Positions 27,079 to 33,151 of a stretch of DNA of 64,000 nucleotides are shown piece after piece. Position numbers and translations under genes: made by a program. The first letter of the stretch is position 1; each line of letters begins with the position of its first letter. The notes beneath the pieces were generated by a model, which saw only the letters and a program-made list of their open reading frames with translations, was not told where the DNA came from and searched no databases. This DNA comes from Sphaerochaeta sp. (lineage in GTDB: Bacteria > Spirochaetota > Spirochaetia > Sphaerochaetales > Sphaerochaetaceae). Location: the NCBI GenBank assembly GCA_018399495.1, contig JAGYOG010000002.1:62001-126000 (forward strand). Direction: 5' to 3'.

Positions 27079-28257
27079 CATAGGCTTGGTCAGGAATAAA
27101 ATTCCCAAGATACCAACCAGTGCCGAGACCTTCCAGAAGAAAACAATCCCTCCTATGAGAAACAGTGATGCAGCAAATGCGTTTATCAGAACCCCACCAA
27201 CTTGCAGGCTGAATGAGGAGAGGCTGATCATACTCGTCCTGATCCTATCTTCTGCCACCTTGTTCAATACATATGATCCGACCACAGAGAGTACTCCAAG
27301 CAGTAAATAGATCAGGGAAAAAACTCCTAAGAACAGAATGACATGTTCAGTCATGGAGAGCAATATCTGTAGGATATACACAAGGATGAACAGTACACAG
27401 TAGATACCAATCGAATTGTTTTTCTTCACGACTATTTTCCCTGCCAACGACCCCAGTATACTGATGGAAAATATGAGTGCTGTAGTCATTCCCAAGATCC
27501 AGAGCATGGAATCATCCTGGAGCAACGCTTGAAGGTATGGCTGCCAATAACTCTCAAGGGAGGCCAAGAGCATACCCTGCAAGAGCACACTCGCACTATA
27601 ATAGACAAGAAAGGGAGAGGAGCGTAAAACTGAGGCGAACAAGCGGAACTGTTCCCCATAGGAGCTGCGCTTTACCTCTTTAGATACCTCTTCCTTGATG
27701 GAGAAGGTTACAATCACCATAGCACCAACCAAAAACAAGATACGTACAAGAAGCAGTGGTTGAGTGAGGGAGGACCCCTCTCTACCAAGGGTAAGAAGCC
27801 AACCTCCCAGTAGGGCTCCTACACTGAGTGAAATTCCTGAATTGAGCTCCAAAGCATACACCAGGTCCTCAAGCTTGTTTCCACTTCTCTGTCCATCCTC
27901 AATATATTTCGCATCGAGGCTCCCACTTCCAAAGGCTCTTCCCAGTCCGGTAAGCAAGAAGCCCAAACCAAGCAGGAAGAGGGAATTGAACAGAATGCAG
28001 AATGTTCCCACCAGAGAGAAGGCAATTCCAAGAAGAAAGCTCGCTTTCCTTCCCCACGTATCTGCAAACACCCCACTAGGAACTTCAGCCACCATTACAG
28101 CTACCGAATACATGACCATAATCACAGCCAAATACTCAAGCGGATATCCCTTGCTTATGACGATCAGACTCATCGCAGGCAGGGTTACCCCTAACGCAAG
28201 ATAGGAGGCTGACAGGCTTGCCAGATAGGAGGCTGGGAAAAAGGTACTGCTAAGCAT
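27055..28257 (-). CDS. Major facilitator superfamily transporter
   Basis: A 400-aa carrier with about 12 membrane segments. The loop-2/3 motif GVFADTWGRKASFLLG (about residues 60-75) is the MFS signature. The substrate is unknown. Its start overlaps the upstream ArsR-type regulator by 8 bp, so the two form a regulator-exporter pair that probably responds to a toxic or signalling compound. Confidence 0.92.
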   Translation of the reverse strand: MLSSTFFPASYLASLSASYLALGVTLPAMSLIVISKGYPLEYLAVIMVMYSVAVMVAEVPSGVFADTWGRKASFLLGIAFSLVGTFCILFNSLFLLGLGFLLTGLGRAFGSGSLDAKYIEDGQRSGNKLEDLVYALELNSGISLSVGALLGGWLLTLGREGSSLTQPLLLVRILFLVGAMVIVTFSIKEEVSKEVKRSSYGEQFRLFASVLRSSPFLVYYSASVLLQGMLLASLESYWQPYLQALLQDDSMLWILGMTTALIFSISILGSLAGKIVVKKNNSIGIYCVLFILVYILQILLSMTEHVILFLGVFSLIYLLLGVLSVVGSYVLNKVAEDRIRTSMISLSSFSLQVGGVLINAFAASLFLIGGIVFFWKVSALVGILGILFLTKPMLQHFPRS

Positions 28258-28771
28258 GGTAAGCCATCAGTGAGAAGACAAAGGGTTCAGTACCTTTCCT
28301 ATTCTTCTCCTTCTCATCGACAAAATCCCTGATAAGCTTATACAGCTCATCAGCATCCGATCTATTGAGATGGACTACTCCGGAAAGCTGGTCTGCCTGA
28401 AAATGACCATTCTCATCGGTAAATGATTGCGCCTTCTTATAGAAATCATCGTGGATTTGTCTGGTTACCACATCAGAAGCAAGTTTCCTTTTCTCTTCAG
28501 CAAGAGAGCTGAAACTCACCGTTACCAGGCTCTTTCGGTAATAGGTGGCGGTAATGCCATGGATTAATTCAGTGTGATCAACCTCTACTACCTGCAACTC
28601 CACCAAACGAGCAACATGATGTTTTGCACTTGATGGGGTCATTCCGAGTGCCTCGCTGAGCATCTTTGCCGTCATCGGACCCTGTACGCTCAACTCATGC
28701 AAGATCTGCTGCCGTTTAGGATGCATGTAGATTTCCAACTGTTTCCCATCTTGTATATAAAGCATATTCAT
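28250..28771 (-). CDS. ArsR-type winged-helix transcriptional regulator
   Basis: A 173-aa protein with an N-terminal winged helix (about 17-75: KRQQILHELSVQGPMTAKMLSEAL, then SSAKHHVARLVELQVV) and a C-terminal part of about 90 residues. That is longer than a minimal ArsR and may be the sensor. It precedes and overlaps the MFS transporter. A 19-bp palindrome lies just upstream, suggesting autorepression. The start is uncertain: the ATG at 28771 or the one at 28765 is possible and neither has a ribosome site. Confidence 0.88.
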   Translation of the reverse strand: MNMLYIQDGKQLEIYMHPKRQQILHELSVQGPMTAKMLSEALGMTPSSAKHHVARLVELQVVEVDHTELIHGITATYYRKSLVTVSFSSLAEEKRKLASDVVTRQIHDDFYKKAQSFTDENGHFQADQLSGVVHLNRSDADELYKLIRDFVDEKEKNRKGTEPFVFSLMAYHA

Positions 28772-28785
28772 AACATTATATATAT

Positions 28786-28804
28786 CATAACAATTATTGT
28801 TATG
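28786..28804. promoter_or_regulatory. 19-bp palindromic operator before the ArsR-type gene
   Basis: CATAACAAT, one central T, ATTGTTATG: a perfect palindrome 15 bp upstream of the regulator start and just upstream of a TATAAT at 28775-28780. A related half-site CATAACATT lies at 28769-28777. Most likely bound by the adjacent regulator. Confidence 0.65.
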
Positions 28805-28822: not shown

Positions 28823-28851
28823 TTGTAAAGAATCGTATTTTTTGGTATTAT
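28823..28851 (+). promoter_or_regulatory. metK promoter
   Basis: TTGTAA at 28823-28828, 17-bp spacer, TATTAT at 28846-28851. The predicted start near 28858 coincides with the first base of the P1 stem of the leader structure. Confidence 0.65.
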
Positions 28852-28857
28852 TTTTGA

Positions 28858-28920
28858 TGACGTCGATTTGTCAGCCTCCCGGCTTGCGGGCGTCAATAAA
28901 GAAACTTGCTAAAAGGGGAG
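28858..28920 (+). ncRNA. SAM-II-like riboswitch aptamer in the metK leader
   Basis: P1 stem TGACG (28858-28862) with CGTCA (28891-28895). Loop strand TCGATTT follows at 28863-28869. A pseudoknot is possible between CTCCC (28876-28880) and GGGAG (28916-28920). The 3' strand contains GCTAAAA (28908-28914) before the G-run. This order and these short conserved elements match what I remember of the SAM-II H-type pseudoknot. The gene downstream is SAM synthetase, as expected for a SAM sensor. A covariance search is needed to confirm the family. Confidence 0.6.
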
Positions 28921-28947
28921 CGTATCAATCCAAATGAGTTGAGTTCC

Positions 28948-28973
28948 CCCTTCCGCAGTTCCATAAGGAAGGG
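28948..28973 (+). promoter_or_regulatory. Hairpin sequestering the metK ribosome site
   Basis: CCCTTCC (28948-28954) pairs perfectly with GGAAGGG (28967-28973), the latter being the metK Shine-Dalgarno 6 nt before the ATG. The upstream AAGGGG (28913-28918) can instead pair with CCCCTT (28947-28952). This gives a mutually exclusive switch with the pseudoknot of the aptamer. Confidence 0.6.
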
Positions 28974-28979
28974 TGTAGT

Positions 28980-30125
28980 ATGTTAACACACGGTTCACAC
29001 ATTTTCACTTCAGAATCAGTCAGTGAGGGACATCCGGACAAGGTCTGCGATCAGATTTCTGATGCCGTTTTGGATGCCTGTCTTGCCCAGGACCCACAAA
29101 GCAGGGTTGCTTGTGAAGTTTTTGCAACTACCAACAGGGTCGTGGTGGGAGGAGAACTCTCCACCAAGGCAACAATCGACATCGAACAGATTGTCCGATC
29201 CACAGTAAAAGAAATTGGATATACTGACGAGGGATGCGGATTTGACTACCGCACACTTAAGGTTCTCAATTTCACCACCACCCAATCAGCAGATATTTCC
29301 ATGGGTGTGACTGCTGAAACATCTCTGTACGGCCAACAGGGTGCAGGGGACCAAGGTATGATGTTCGGATATGCCTGCAATGAAACAGAAAATCTCATGC
29401 CAGCTCCAATCTATTGGGCACATCAACTTCTGGAAAGGGCAAGCAAGCTGAGAAAAAGCGGAGAAGCCCCCTTTTTGAGACCCGATGCAAAGAGTCAGGT
29501 CTCCTTGCTGTACAAAGATGGCAAACCGGTTCATATTGACTCGGTGGTCATCAGTCACCAGCATACAGAACAGGCCCGTCGTGACACATTAATCCCTTAC
29601 CTCACCGAGCAGGTCATTGAAACAGTTCTTGGCCCTACTGGTCTGCTGAATGAGAAGACTAAATTGTACATCAACCCAACAGGAAGATTTGTTACAGGAG
29701 GTCCTGCAGGGGACACCGGACTGACTGGCCGCAAGATCATCGTAGATACCTACGGTGGCATAGGTCGCCATGGAGGAGGAGCCTTCAGTGGAAAAGATCC
29801 CTCCAAAGTTGACCGTAGCGGTGCCTATATGGCTCGCTATGTTGCAAAAAATCTGGTAGCAAATGGTTTGTGTACAACTTGTGAGGTCCAACTCTCCTAT
29901 GCAATCGGGGTTCCCTATCCCATCTCCATCTATGTCGATACCTTCGGCACCGGAGTAGAGGACGATGAGCAGTTGGAAAAGCTGGTACGAGAAAAGTTCG
30001 ACCTCACTCCTTCAGGCATCATAACGACATTGGATTTGAAACGGCCAATCTACCAGAAAACCATGAACTATGGACACTTTGGCAAGAGCGACCTTCCTTG
30101 GGAACAGATCATTTCACTCGCTTGA
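28980..30125 (+). CDS. metK: S-adenosylmethionine synthetase
   Basis: Makes SAM from methionine and ATP. The 381-aa protein has all family blocks: [24 protein letters not shown] at the start (metal and ATP contacts), [12 protein letters not shown], and the P-loop-like [19 protein letters not shown]. Length is normal. It stands alone behind its own promoter and a structured leader, and overlaps the convergent nrdG by 17 bp. Confidence 0.98.
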
Positions 30126-30816
30126 GATTCGGCTGCAAGAGGATCAACTTCTCTTGCAAGCCAATAACCTCCCGCTCACTGAGAGCGGGCAGGCCTACCC
30201 TCTCTCCATCCTTCTGCTTATACTCCTTCGGTGTACGATAGAAATTAAGTACCCAGCGGTTTACTTCCGGTAGCATGGTAGCAATCTCCAGCAAATCCTC
30301 TTCCATTAAGGTTGGGGCCAAGGTGGTTCTCACCTCCCAGCGAAAGGCCAGGTGTGTCTCTTGATACTCCTGGAGAAGCGACACACATCGTTGTACATTT
30401 GCTGGATCGGCTCCCTTTCCTGCTATTTCGCGATACCTAGCCCACGGCGCTTTCACATCCAAGGCTACATAGTCGAGCAGGCCTGCATTTAACAATTCCA
30501 AAAGCACCTTAGGCCTACTCCCATTGGTATCAAGTTTTGCCAAAAAGCCCAGCTTTTTTGCCAAGACAAAATACTGAGGAAGACTGGCATGCAAGGTAGG
30601 CTCCCCTCCACTGATGACCACTGCTTGCAGGAATCCCTCCCGTTTCTTTAAGAAACTTTCTATCTCTTGATAGCCTATATTACCCTTCTTATATGTAATC
30701 AAAGCACGATTATGGCAATAGAAGCAGTCATAATTACATCCTTGGGTAAACAAGACACAGCTCAACATTCCTGAATAATCCAAAAATGAAGAGCCTTCAA
30801 TACCACTTATGATCAT
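30109..30816 (-). CDS. nrdG: Anaerobic ribonucleotide reductase activating protein (radical SAM)
   Basis: Generates the glycyl radical of NrdD. 235 aa from the ATG at 30816, which overlaps the nrdD stop by four bases. The [4Fe-4S] motif CNYDCFYC (CX3CX2C) is near residue 30, followed by [11 protein letters not shown]. It is the longer form of NrdG rather than the roughly 155-aa enterobacterial form. Co-transcribed with nrdD under the cobalamin riboswitch. Confidence 0.94.
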
Positions 30817-32888
30817 GATACTTTCACCGTATATGACTTTCTCTGGCGATGCTCCTCTTGCTTTCCAGGATGAAAGTCCTCCTTGGGTCTGAGGTAGCCA
30901 ACCACCCGGGTCCATACCTCAGTCTTTTCCCCACAATAAGGGCAATACTCAACCTCGCCATCGAGATATCCATGGTTCTTGCAGGTAGAGAAGGTTGGGG
31001 TAAGGGAGACATAGGGAAGTTTGTAACGGGTACATACATTCCTTACCAACTGCTTGGCAAGCTTTGGGTCCTCTATTCTCTGGGCAAGATAGAGGTGTAG
31101 GACCGTACCTCCAGTGTATTGGCACTGCAGTTCATCCTGCTTCTCAAGTGTCTCAAAGAGGTCGTCTGTATACCCTACCGGAAGCTGGGAGGAGTTGGTG
31201 TAATATGCAACCTCTTCGCCGGCGGTGATGATATCACTATATGATTTCTTGTCGAGATTTGCCAACCGATAGCTCGCTCCCTCGGCGGGGGTCGCTTCAA
31301 GATTGTAAAAGTTTCCTGTCTCATTCTGGAAACCTTGGATACTTTCACGCAAGACGGAAAGTACCTGAAGGGCAAACGACTGTCCTTTCTCGGTTGTTAG
31401 GGATCCTTCCTTACCGAATAGATTGAGGCACGCTTCTTCCATACCTACGATACCGATGGTACTGAAGTGGTTTGCCCAGTAGCGTCCATTACGCTGCTTT
31501 ACAGCTTCCAAGGAGAATTGACTGAACGGATATATTCCACGCTCAGTTTGTTTCTCGATAACATTCCGCTTGATCTCAAGGCTCTCCTTTGCAAGCTTGG
31601 AAAGATCTTTAAGAACAGTGATGAATATATTCTCATCTTGGCTCTCATAAGCAAGACGGGGAAGGTTCAGTGTTACCACACCGATCGAACCGGTAAGAGG
31701 ATTGGAACCAAAAAGCCCACCACCTCGCTTCTTGAGCCCAGAGGTATCGAGTCTGAGTCGGCAGCACATTGATAGCGCATCCTCAGGGGAGAGATCACTG
31801 TTCACATAATTGGAAAAGTAGGGAATCCCATATTTTGCCGTCATTGCAAAAATGGAGTCCACAACGTTTGATTCCCATGGAAACTGTTTGGTAACATTGT
31901 AGGTAGGAATAGGAAACGTGAAGACCCTTCCTGAAGCATCCCCTTCCTCCATAACCTCACAGAAGGCAAAGTTGATCAAATTCATCTCATCCTGAAACTC
32001 TCCATAAGTCTCTTCTTGTGCGACCCCTCCACGGATGACCGAAACATCCTGCAAATTAGAAGGAACGGTGATATCAAAAGTAAGATTGGAGAAGGGACAC
32101 TGAAAACCTACACGAGTCGGGACATTGAGGTTAAAAATGAACTCCTGCATCGCTTGCTTGACCTCACGGAAGGTAAGTCCATCATATCTGATGAAAGGAG
32201 CACAATAGGTGTCAAAGGAAGACCAGGCCTGGGCTCCTGCACACTCACCTTGGAAGGTGAAGGTTGCATTCACCACCTGTCCCAATAAGGCTCTAAAATG
32301 TTTTGCCGGCTTACTGGAAACTTTCCCGTCAACTCCTCCAAATCCTGAGGTAAGAAGCTGGTGAAGGTCCCATCCACAACAGTAAGGTCCAAAAAAACCA
32401 AGGTCATGAAGATGCAATGACCCAATCTGGTGGGCATTACGGATAGCTTCCGGATAGATTTCATGCAACCAGTACTGCTCGGTAAACCGTTCTCGAATGT
32501 AATTGTTCATACCGTTGACCGATCGACGGGTATTGGCATTCTCCTTGACTCTCCAGGTTGTATCATCAAGATACGCACTGAACATCTCGTTTGTTGCCTT
32601 GACTAGAGCCTTACCCTCTCTCACCCGTTCCCTTCCCTTACGGTACAGGATGTAGGCTTTCGCGGTTGCTTGGTATGCCATTTCCATCAGGGATTCTTCG
32701 ACAAGATCCTGGATGTGCTCCACCTCAACCCTTTTCATTTCCTTGGTCTTGGACAAAACGAGCGTAGCTACCTTTTCGGCATCTACGTTTTGTCCTGCAA
32801 CATTTGCTGCTTTTTCGATTGCATCAATGATTTTCTGAATCTCGCAGAGAACCACCTGCCCGTCTCGTTTGACCACTTGCTGTTGCAT
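30813..32888 (-). CDS. nrdD: Anaerobic ribonucleoside-triphosphate reductase (class III)
   Basis: Oxygen-sensitive reductase making dNTPs by glycyl-radical chemistry. 691 aa: an ATP-cone (about 5-95), a ten-stranded barrel core with NPLTGSIGVVTLNLPRL, a C-terminal zinc site (C...CPYCG) and the radical-glycine segment RVVGYLRP near residue 660. The ATG has AGGAGG upstream. A cobalamin riboswitch precedes it, so expression should fall when B12 is plentiful. That suggests a B12-dependent class II reductase elsewhere in the genome. Confidence 0.97.
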   Translation of the reverse strand: MQQQVVKRDGQVVLCEIQKIIDAIEKAANVAGQNVDAEKVATLVLSKTKEMKRVEVEHIQDLVEESLMEMAYQATAKAYILYRKGRERVREGKALVKATNEMFSAYLDDTTWRVKENANTRRSVNGMNNYIRERFTEQYWLHEIYPEAIRNAHQIGSLHLHDLGFFGPYCCGWDLHQLLTSGFGGVDGKVSSKPAKHFRALLGQVVNATFTFQGECAGAQAWSSFDTYCAPFIRYDGLTFREVKQAMQEFIFNLNVPTRVGFQCPFSNLTFDITVPSNLQDVSVIRGGVAQEETYGEFQDEMNLINFAFCEVMEEGDASGRVFTFPIPTYNVTKQFPWESNVVDSIFAMTAKYGIPYFSNYVNSDLSPEDALSMCCRLRLDTSGLKKRGGGLFGSNPLTGSIGVVTLNLPRLAYESQDENIFITVLKDLSKLAKESLEIKRNVIEKQTERGIYPFSQFSLEAVKQRNGRYWANHFSTIGIVGMEEACLNLFGKEGSLTTEKGQSFALQVLSVLRESIQGFQNETGNFYNLEATPAEGASYRLANLDKKSYSDIITAGEEVAYYTNSSQLPVGYTDDLFETLEKQDELQCQYTGGTVLHLYLAQRIEDPKLAKQLVRNVCTRYKLPYVSLTPTFSTCKNHGYLDGEVEYCPYCGEKTEVWTRVVGYLRPKEDFHPGKQEEHRQRKSYTVKVS

Positions 32889-32964: not shown

Positions 32965-33115
32965 CGGCGTGTCTGTACAGGCAAGGTCTTCTGGCTTAGG
33001 TTCTACATCCCAGGCTCCTTCCCAGATTTCTCCAGTGGATCTTACCCGAAACTCCCCATCACAGCGGCGGGACCGCGTGGGCTTCTACACCCAACTTCCC
33101 TTTTCCTATACACAC
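32965..33115 (-). ncRNA. Cobalamin riboswitch upstream of nrdD
   Basis: Read on the minus strand, the region contains the canonical elements in order: GCCGCTGTGATGGGGAG (around 33070-33054), CCACTGG...CTGGGAAGG (around 33037-33018) and the B12 box AAGCCAGAAGACCTTGCC (about 32997-32980). Downstream, GGCGTGT can pair with ACACGCC in a long hairpin (about 32940-32972) that is the likely expression platform. Boundaries are approximate. Confidence 0.9.
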
Positions 33116-33151
33116 AATATATAGTGTTTTGTGCCATACGGCACACTAGCA

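Follow-up and report, generated by a model that had tools for sequence, protein, structure and literature searches.

A predicted SAM-II-type aptamer in the metK leader of a Sphaerochaeta genome

A probable SAM-II-type aptamer at the predicted metK transcription start

The leader of metK in the window, by which we mean the whole 64,000-nucleotide stretch analysed, very probably contains a SAM-II-type aptamer, as predicted from its pairing pattern, its core letters and its match to the SAM-II model. The aptamer itself is ordinary; its host, its target and its probable output are unusual. Together with a downstream platform in which one pseudoknot strand swaps partners, it appears to form a riboswitch that would repress metK translation at high SAM, a model of the joint device that we consider likely, with moderate confidence. 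The gene (28980-30125, plus strand) encodes a protein of 381 amino acids and is assigned as S-adenosylmethionine synthetase because all three S-AdoMet synthetase Pfam domains (PF00438, PF02772 and PF02773) score above their cut-offs.

The predicted aptamer is an H-type pseudoknot of three helices, P1, P2b and P2a, around a SAM-II core. The sequence-only reading had proposed a P1 stem, a CTCCC/GGGAG pseudoknot and a loop and GCTAAAA strand placed as in SAM-II RNAs, and each of these elements lies where it was put. On the plus strand, TGACG (28858-28862) faces CGTCA (28891-28895), and P1 can be extended to 28864/28889 with one U-G pair, giving the strands TGACGTC (28858-28864) and GGCGTCA (28889-28895). 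Loop L1, GATTTG (28865-28870), lines up with the SAM-II consensus GAUUUG in the RF00521 alignment and is presumably the ligand-site loop. It is followed by the 5' strand of P2a, CTCCC (28876-28880), and that of P2b, TTGC (28884-28887). The 3' strand of P2b, GCTAA (28908-28912), includes the U that is left unpaired in the SAM-II site, and we take this strand with its U to be part of the ligand site. The 3' strand of P2a, GGGAG (28916-28920), closes the pseudoknot and is separated from the metK ATG by 59 nucleotides. A sigma-70-type promoter is predicted at 28823-28851 (plus strand; TTGTAA, 17 nucleotides, TATTAT, with a TG before the second hexamer); this consensus match places the predicted transcription start near 28858, in a 401-base region that has three promoter-like sites on its two strands against 1.2 expected.

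In a scan of 301 bases against all 4227 Rfam families, the SAM-II model (RF00521, SAM_alpha) matches 28849-28933 with 30.3 bits and an E-value of 3.1e-5 (6.2e-5 when the whole genome is scanned). The covariance-model search suggested as a check thus came out in favour of the original reading: SAM-II is the only significant family at the leader, the next best having an E-value of 3.1. The score is below the gathering score of 36 bits that defines membership of the family, which is why the element escapes a default Rfam scan of the window, whose sole finding is a cobalamin riboswitch at 32969-33136. The other features that define SAM-II are present: an H-type pseudoknot of P1 and P2, in which P1 and P2a covary and the invariant P2b is uninformative; a GAUUU loop with UUGC/GC(U)AA, read from the window letters; and a place in the leader of a methionine or SAM gene, here metK. 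SAM-I (RF00162) has no match in the window at the gathering score or in the leader at E ≤ 10, nor in any of the 26 genomes of the window's genus, its own included, at E ≤ 1e-4.

A related pseudoknot with another ligand, such as SAH or a dual SAM/SAH sensor, or an RNA of the SAM-V or SAM-II-long-loops class, could look much the same. In one distant relative (G487), the element precedes an ORF that we presume to be ahcY, which is followed by metK. SAM/SAH RNAs are described before metK (PMC2864571, as excerpted), and SAM-V is described as having the same fold (PMC6061858, as excerpted). Against this, the SAM-V (RF01826) and SAM-II long loops (RF01726) models have no match at the locus, their best matches elsewhere in the genome being at E 2.4, a chance level, and E 0.36, respectively; no other Rfam family is significant, and UUGC/GCUAA is kept in all 38 distinct aptamers compared. 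We therefore regard another ligand or class as improbable.

Covariation of the aptamer

The compensatory changes that the sequence-only reading had called for are found in relatives: all six P1 pairs and four of the five P2a pairs are doubly changed among the 38 aptamers. When the pseudoknot is spelled out in the alignment, a pair is present in 88.4% of the paired cells (P1 95.4%, P2a 71.1%, P2b 100%). Some of the P2a mispairs come from aptamers whose P2b and P2a are one nucleotide closer together, a shift that the alignment fails to capture. Being invariant, P2b neither supports nor opposes its own pairing. When the partners are slid against each other, the paired cells drop from 88.4% to 33.5-48.5%. 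None of 500 shuffles attains the covariation score, the percentage of paired cells or either double-change count; on the last of the five measures, the number of further pair types, 38 of the 500 do. The aptamers are kin, and neither these figures nor those of the strand swaps below are probabilities.

Exchanging the 3' strands of 42 aptamers at random, the register being free in each, gave the same picture for both helices. For P1 the observed pairing score is 5.62, against a mean of 4.39 and a highest value of 4.85 in 1000 swaps; for P2a it is 3.50, against a mean of 2.66 and a highest value of 3.15. The letters of P2a differ across the phylum, from CTCCC/GGGAG in the window to TCAC/GTGA in G180 and CTTAC/GTAAG in G296. 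One of the 42 aptamers (L195) lacks P2a pairing, and many aptamers away from metK have a P2a of only 2 bp.

Control at the DNA level, by a divergent ArsR-type regulator binding a palindrome and with the RNA likeness incidental, would not be expected to lead to such covariation of the element as RNA. The divergent ORF (28250-28771, minus strand) does have HTH_20 and ArsR-family Pfam matches above cut-off, and a 19-base palindrome (28786-28804) lies between this ORF and metK. The palindrome is nearer to the divergent gene than to metK, however, and in another genome (G080) the element precedes metK although the divergent ORF, judged by eye, is a different one. This explanation appears most unlikely to us. 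The palindrome is perfect except for its central base and overlaps the predicted promoter of the ArsR-type regulator.

Distribution among relatives

The bacterial family was sampled with 139 genomes; an order-level search gave the same number, with the same genomes listed. RF00521 matches 52 of them at E ≤ 0.1, 35 at E ≤ 0.001 and eight above its cut-off, compared with none of 14 control genomes at E ≤ 0.001, two at E ≤ 0.1 and all 14 at E ≤ 10. When the phylum was sampled evenly, a match at E ≤ 0.001 was seen in 11 of 392 genomes, five of them outside the family. Two leaders of metK itself score above the SAM-II cut-off, with 41.2 bits (G022) and 40 bits (G018). The sequence-only reading had left open whether the element is SAM-II outside its known range or a related but distinct SAM fold; since relatives of the same family cross the SAM-II cut-off, these two at metK, the former option fits better and the latter is not favoured.

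From the RF00521 matches in the family and the phylum, leaving out near-duplicates and five weak matches, a covariance model was built with P1 as its only helix (R1, the 38 aptamers described above). The five weak matches (L197, L201, L202, L203 and L204, with RF00521 E-values of 0.004-0.058) were judged to be chance, as they look like coding sequence and have no P1 or L1. At E ≤ 1e-4, R1 matches 57 of 139 genomes in the family, 36 of 346 in a class sample (15 outside the family) and 25 of 392 in the phylum sample (15 outside the family), uncontrolled counts that include the members, which match by construction. The family figure of 57 of 139 with this family-tuned model, members included, compared with eight of 139 for RF00521, suggests that a coherent set goes unseen at the Rfam cut-off.

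Of the 75 R1 places in the family, at least 41 either abut metK or are found upstream of it, on its strand, at a distance of no more than 300 nucleotides. This minimum comes from comparison with 55 metK places, and the other 34 R1 places are away from these. Model members account for 16 of the 41 and relatives of the same genus as members for 19; the remaining six (G089, G129, G131, G132, G134 and G135, five of them from genus g21) come from genera that contributed no metK leader to the model. The window's genus (g1) is represented by 26 genomes, its own included; of the 24 in which metK was located, 23 have the element next to it, and in the other one (G104) element and metK are on separate contigs. 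Twelve R1 matches outside the model were inspected, and eight have the core letter pattern (all except L218, L219, L230 and L232). A full Rfam scan of six of these twelve put two class-level matches above the SAM-II cut-off (L217, 46.1 bits, and L215, 43.1 bits) and gave a SAM-II match with an E-value of 0.069 for L218 and none at E ≤ 0.1 for L221, L223 and L226. In three R1-matching genomes outside the family (G432, G399 and G472), an ORF that starts within about 100 nucleotides downstream of the element reads as MetK from its first residues.

Named relatives of the MetK protein reach about 63% identity at most among the matches listed, and eight of the first nine listed are labelled spirochaetes, which makes a spirochaete host plausible. 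RF00521 matches none of 13 genomes behind named MetK loci, and none of the controls either; this zero does not show absence. Four of 80 named MetK loci have an R1 match at E ≤ 1. Three are before metK: in a Spirochaetaceae MAG (L096, 2900-2993, E 1.8e-4), in a Spirochaetes MAG (L047, 2920-2947, a partial match, E 0.023) and in a gammaproteobacterial MAG (L081, 1540-1617, E 0.041). The fourth, in SAR86 (L071, E 4.4e-4), precedes another ORF upstream of metK. Despite a SAM-II-like core in their metK leaders, L096, L047 and L081 have no significant Rfam SAM-II match; RF00521 gives only 11.4 bits in L096, and L047 has no match to any Rfam family at E ≤ 5. By eye, L096 and L081 have a hairpin inserted between P1 and GCTAA. 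The L081 locus also carries an SAH riboswitch, at 2844-2915, above the cut-off of its family.

SAM-I is found above its cut-off in 19 of the 139 family genomes and sits in the metK leader in G023, G031, G032 and G033. Five genomes, in assemblies of mixed quality, have both a SAM-I element above cut-off and an R1 match (G024, G031, G032, G059 and G131). At the thresholds used, the metK-bearing genomes of this one family thus have a SAM-II-type element, SAM-I, both or neither, and replacement of one riboswitch class by another is therefore traceable between relatives.

A possible partner-swap platform at the metK start

The Shine-Dalgarno region of metK, GGAAGGG (28967-28973, plus strand), ends six nucleotides before the ATG. 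Upstream of it, on the same strand, lie a putative sequestor, CCCTTCC (28948-28954), and two putative antisequestor strands, GGGGAGC (28915-28921), which overlaps the 3' strand of P2a, and GTTCCCC (28943-28949), with a linker hairpin between them (28925-28942, formed by TCAAT 28925-28929 and GTTGA 28938-28942). SAM binding would lock GGGAG (28916-28920) into P2a, leaving CCCTTCC free to pair with the Shine-Dalgarno region and turning metK off. When SAM is scarce, GGGGAGC would instead pair with GTTCCCC around the small linker hairpin; this pairing would weaken the Shine-Dalgarno hairpin, and ribosomes could enter. SAM would in this way restrain its own synthesis by negative feedback.

Sixty metK leader regions were compared (one of only 33 nucleotides, at a contig end), of which 29 are, by eye, of the long type seen in the window. 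The window leader and 22 of these 29, near-duplicates being omitted, were aligned. The RNAalifold consensus of the 23 leaders contains P1 and the hairpin of the pyrimidine strand with the Shine-Dalgarno region (CCCTTCC/GGAAGGG); AGGAAGG, at the Shine-Dalgarno site, is invariant in these leaders. The consensus also has a small hairpin that lies in the aptamer loop and would compete with P2. The covariation term of the consensus is weak, at −0.38, and three of its 17 pairs show double changes. Folded alone and free of pseudoknots, the window leader prefers GGGGAGC paired with GTTCCCC around the linker hairpin as its minimum free energy structure (z −2.1, a stability equalled by five of 200 shuffles). 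The 3' strand of P2a thus has two possible partners. The linker hairpin is weak: the window linker alone has a z-score of −0.3 and 20 distinct linkers have a mean of −0.87, values that are rough, four of the 23 leaders (G092, G084, G083 and G082) being badly parsed.

Masking the P2 strands, to resemble the bound state, lowers the unpaired probability of the Shine-Dalgarno region in ensemble folds of all 23 leaders, from a mean of 0.37 to 0.14. The change is modest, and at most 0.03 in four leaders (G111, G084, G080 and G079). In 17 of the 23, masking the P2 3' strand closes the Shine-Dalgarno region more than masking any other upstream window of 13 nucleotides. The downstream pairing probability of the P2a 3' strand is only 0.21 in G101 and 0.25 in G096. 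Exclusion between the two pairings would be partial, as the antisequestor and sequestor strands share two nucleotides (28948-28949), and part of the Shine-Dalgarno region stays paired, through another short helix, when the window leader is in its apo fold. The case for the platform is built on folds of whole leaders because complementarity of the strands by itself is no better than that of shuffled strands: for the duplex of the P2a 3' strand with the pyrimidine tract, a fraction of 0.07-0.75 of the shuffled strands does as well across the 23 leaders. As a different output, a transcription terminator was considered and rejected, no terminator-like site being found in a scan of the 401-base region.

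The aptamer may act by another route, in which the pseudoknot blocks ribosome loading or alters mRNA stability from a distance and the Shine-Dalgarno hairpin is constitutive. Sinorhizobium SAM-II is described as controlling translation that starts 74 nucleotides downstream, and also RNA stability (PMC9373788, as excerpted). The Shine-Dalgarno hairpin is the best-conserved part of the platform. In G077 the Shine-Dalgarno sequence lies, by eye, within P2a just before metK, and in five g21 genomes the coordinates show that the element abuts metK. A constitutive hairpin does not fit well with the alternative pairing of the P2a 3' strand, which is predicted across related leaders despite their differing linkers. 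On balance, control without the strand swap seems the less likely course, and we favour the partner-swap platform.

Relation to known SAM riboswitches

The element resembles SAM-II in its H-type pseudoknot, GAUUU loop, UUGC/GC(U)AA, GC-rich 5-bp P2a and association with a methionine-cycle gene, and differs from the Rfam family in its score and in its probable spirochaete host. SAM-II is described from Alpha-, Beta- and Gammaproteobacteria (PMC2704228, as excerpted) and is listed in tandem with SAM-I/IV (PMC9481103, as excerpted). The SAM-II long loops variant RF01726, listed for Bacteroidetes and marine samples (PMC2864571, same excerpt), is like the present element in being a form of SAM-II outside Proteobacteria, but its model has no match here. 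We found no report of SAM-II or SAM_alpha from spirochaetes or Sphaerochaeta in the literature searched, part of it in excerpt, and an earlier report is possible. If our assignment is correct, the range of SAM-II would extend beyond the alpha-, beta- and gamma-Proteobacteria and Bacteroidetes named in these excerpts.

The target may also be new to the class. A survey of some 200 proteobacterial genomes gives metY, hom, metA, metX, metC and metW as SAM_alpha targets, and the excerpted part does not name metK (PMC4239095); the SAM synthetase itself would be added to the SAM-II targets. As to output, SAM-II is described as mostly transcriptional, with metX as a rare translational case, and as having a terminator or the Shine-Dalgarno sequence inside P2a (PMC6061858, the SAM-V paper, as excerpted), unlike the probable separate platform that would hide the Shine-Dalgarno region here. 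SAM-V shares the pseudoknot core and translational control with the present element, but has a P2a of 2 bp instead of five (same excerpt). The metA element of Sinorhizobium meliloti is similar in controlling translation from a start codon well downstream; there the Shine-Dalgarno sequence is within the riboswitch (PMC9373788, same excerpt), whereas our model for metK has the P2a strand change partners and assigns the Shine-Dalgarno region to a second hairpin. If the model holds, the element would show translational control through such an exchange of partners.

Possible variant outputs and neighbouring elements

The metK leaders of relatives differ in how the element meets the gene. Besides the G077 arrangement, G022 and G116 have a short ORF between the element and metK, and G026 has a run of pyrimidines, immediately upstream of the Shine-Dalgarno region of metK, that matches the 3' strand of P2a (both by eye). 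Tentatively, and with rather less confidence than we have in the switch itself, we picture SAM-II-type RNAs as a broad, largely Rfam-invisible spirochaete group that would feed SAM back on metK through three outputs (the Shine-Dalgarno sequence inside P2a, a hairpin hiding it with a partner swap, and short leader ORFs). Some would have an additional hairpin between P1 and GCTAA, and some would be carried by prophage-like elements, at times in tandem, ahead of a short MetK of their own.

The genome that contains the window has a second SAM-II-type element on another contig (C22:416-493; L002, L205), with an RF00521 score of 30.2 bits; neither this element nor the platform that would hide the Shine-Dalgarno region figured in the sequence-only reading. 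It has AGGAG in a P2 strand and precedes a short ORF and an ORF of 133 amino acids (beginning MQYT), for which no Pfam match above cut-off was found. Several genomes of genus g1 have similar pairs.

SAM-II-type elements also lie ahead of a short MetK of 262 amino acids in G118 (L199) and in G132 (L195, with an ORF in between). Relatives of this short protein are common on viral contigs (at least 80 loci; phrog_1569, of unknown function). Among the matches listed, two of 80 viral loci have tandem SAM-II-type elements ahead of the short MetK, at 859-930 and 985-1062 on L303 and at 1542-1613 and 1666-1744 on L236. L303 and contig C37 of G132 are probably the same contig, as they agree in length and in match position.

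Within the window, the cobalamin riboswitch reported by the default Rfam scan is on the minus strand (73.9 bits) and lies ahead of an ORF of 691 amino acids (30813-32888, minus strand), presumably an anaerobic ribonucleotide reductase.
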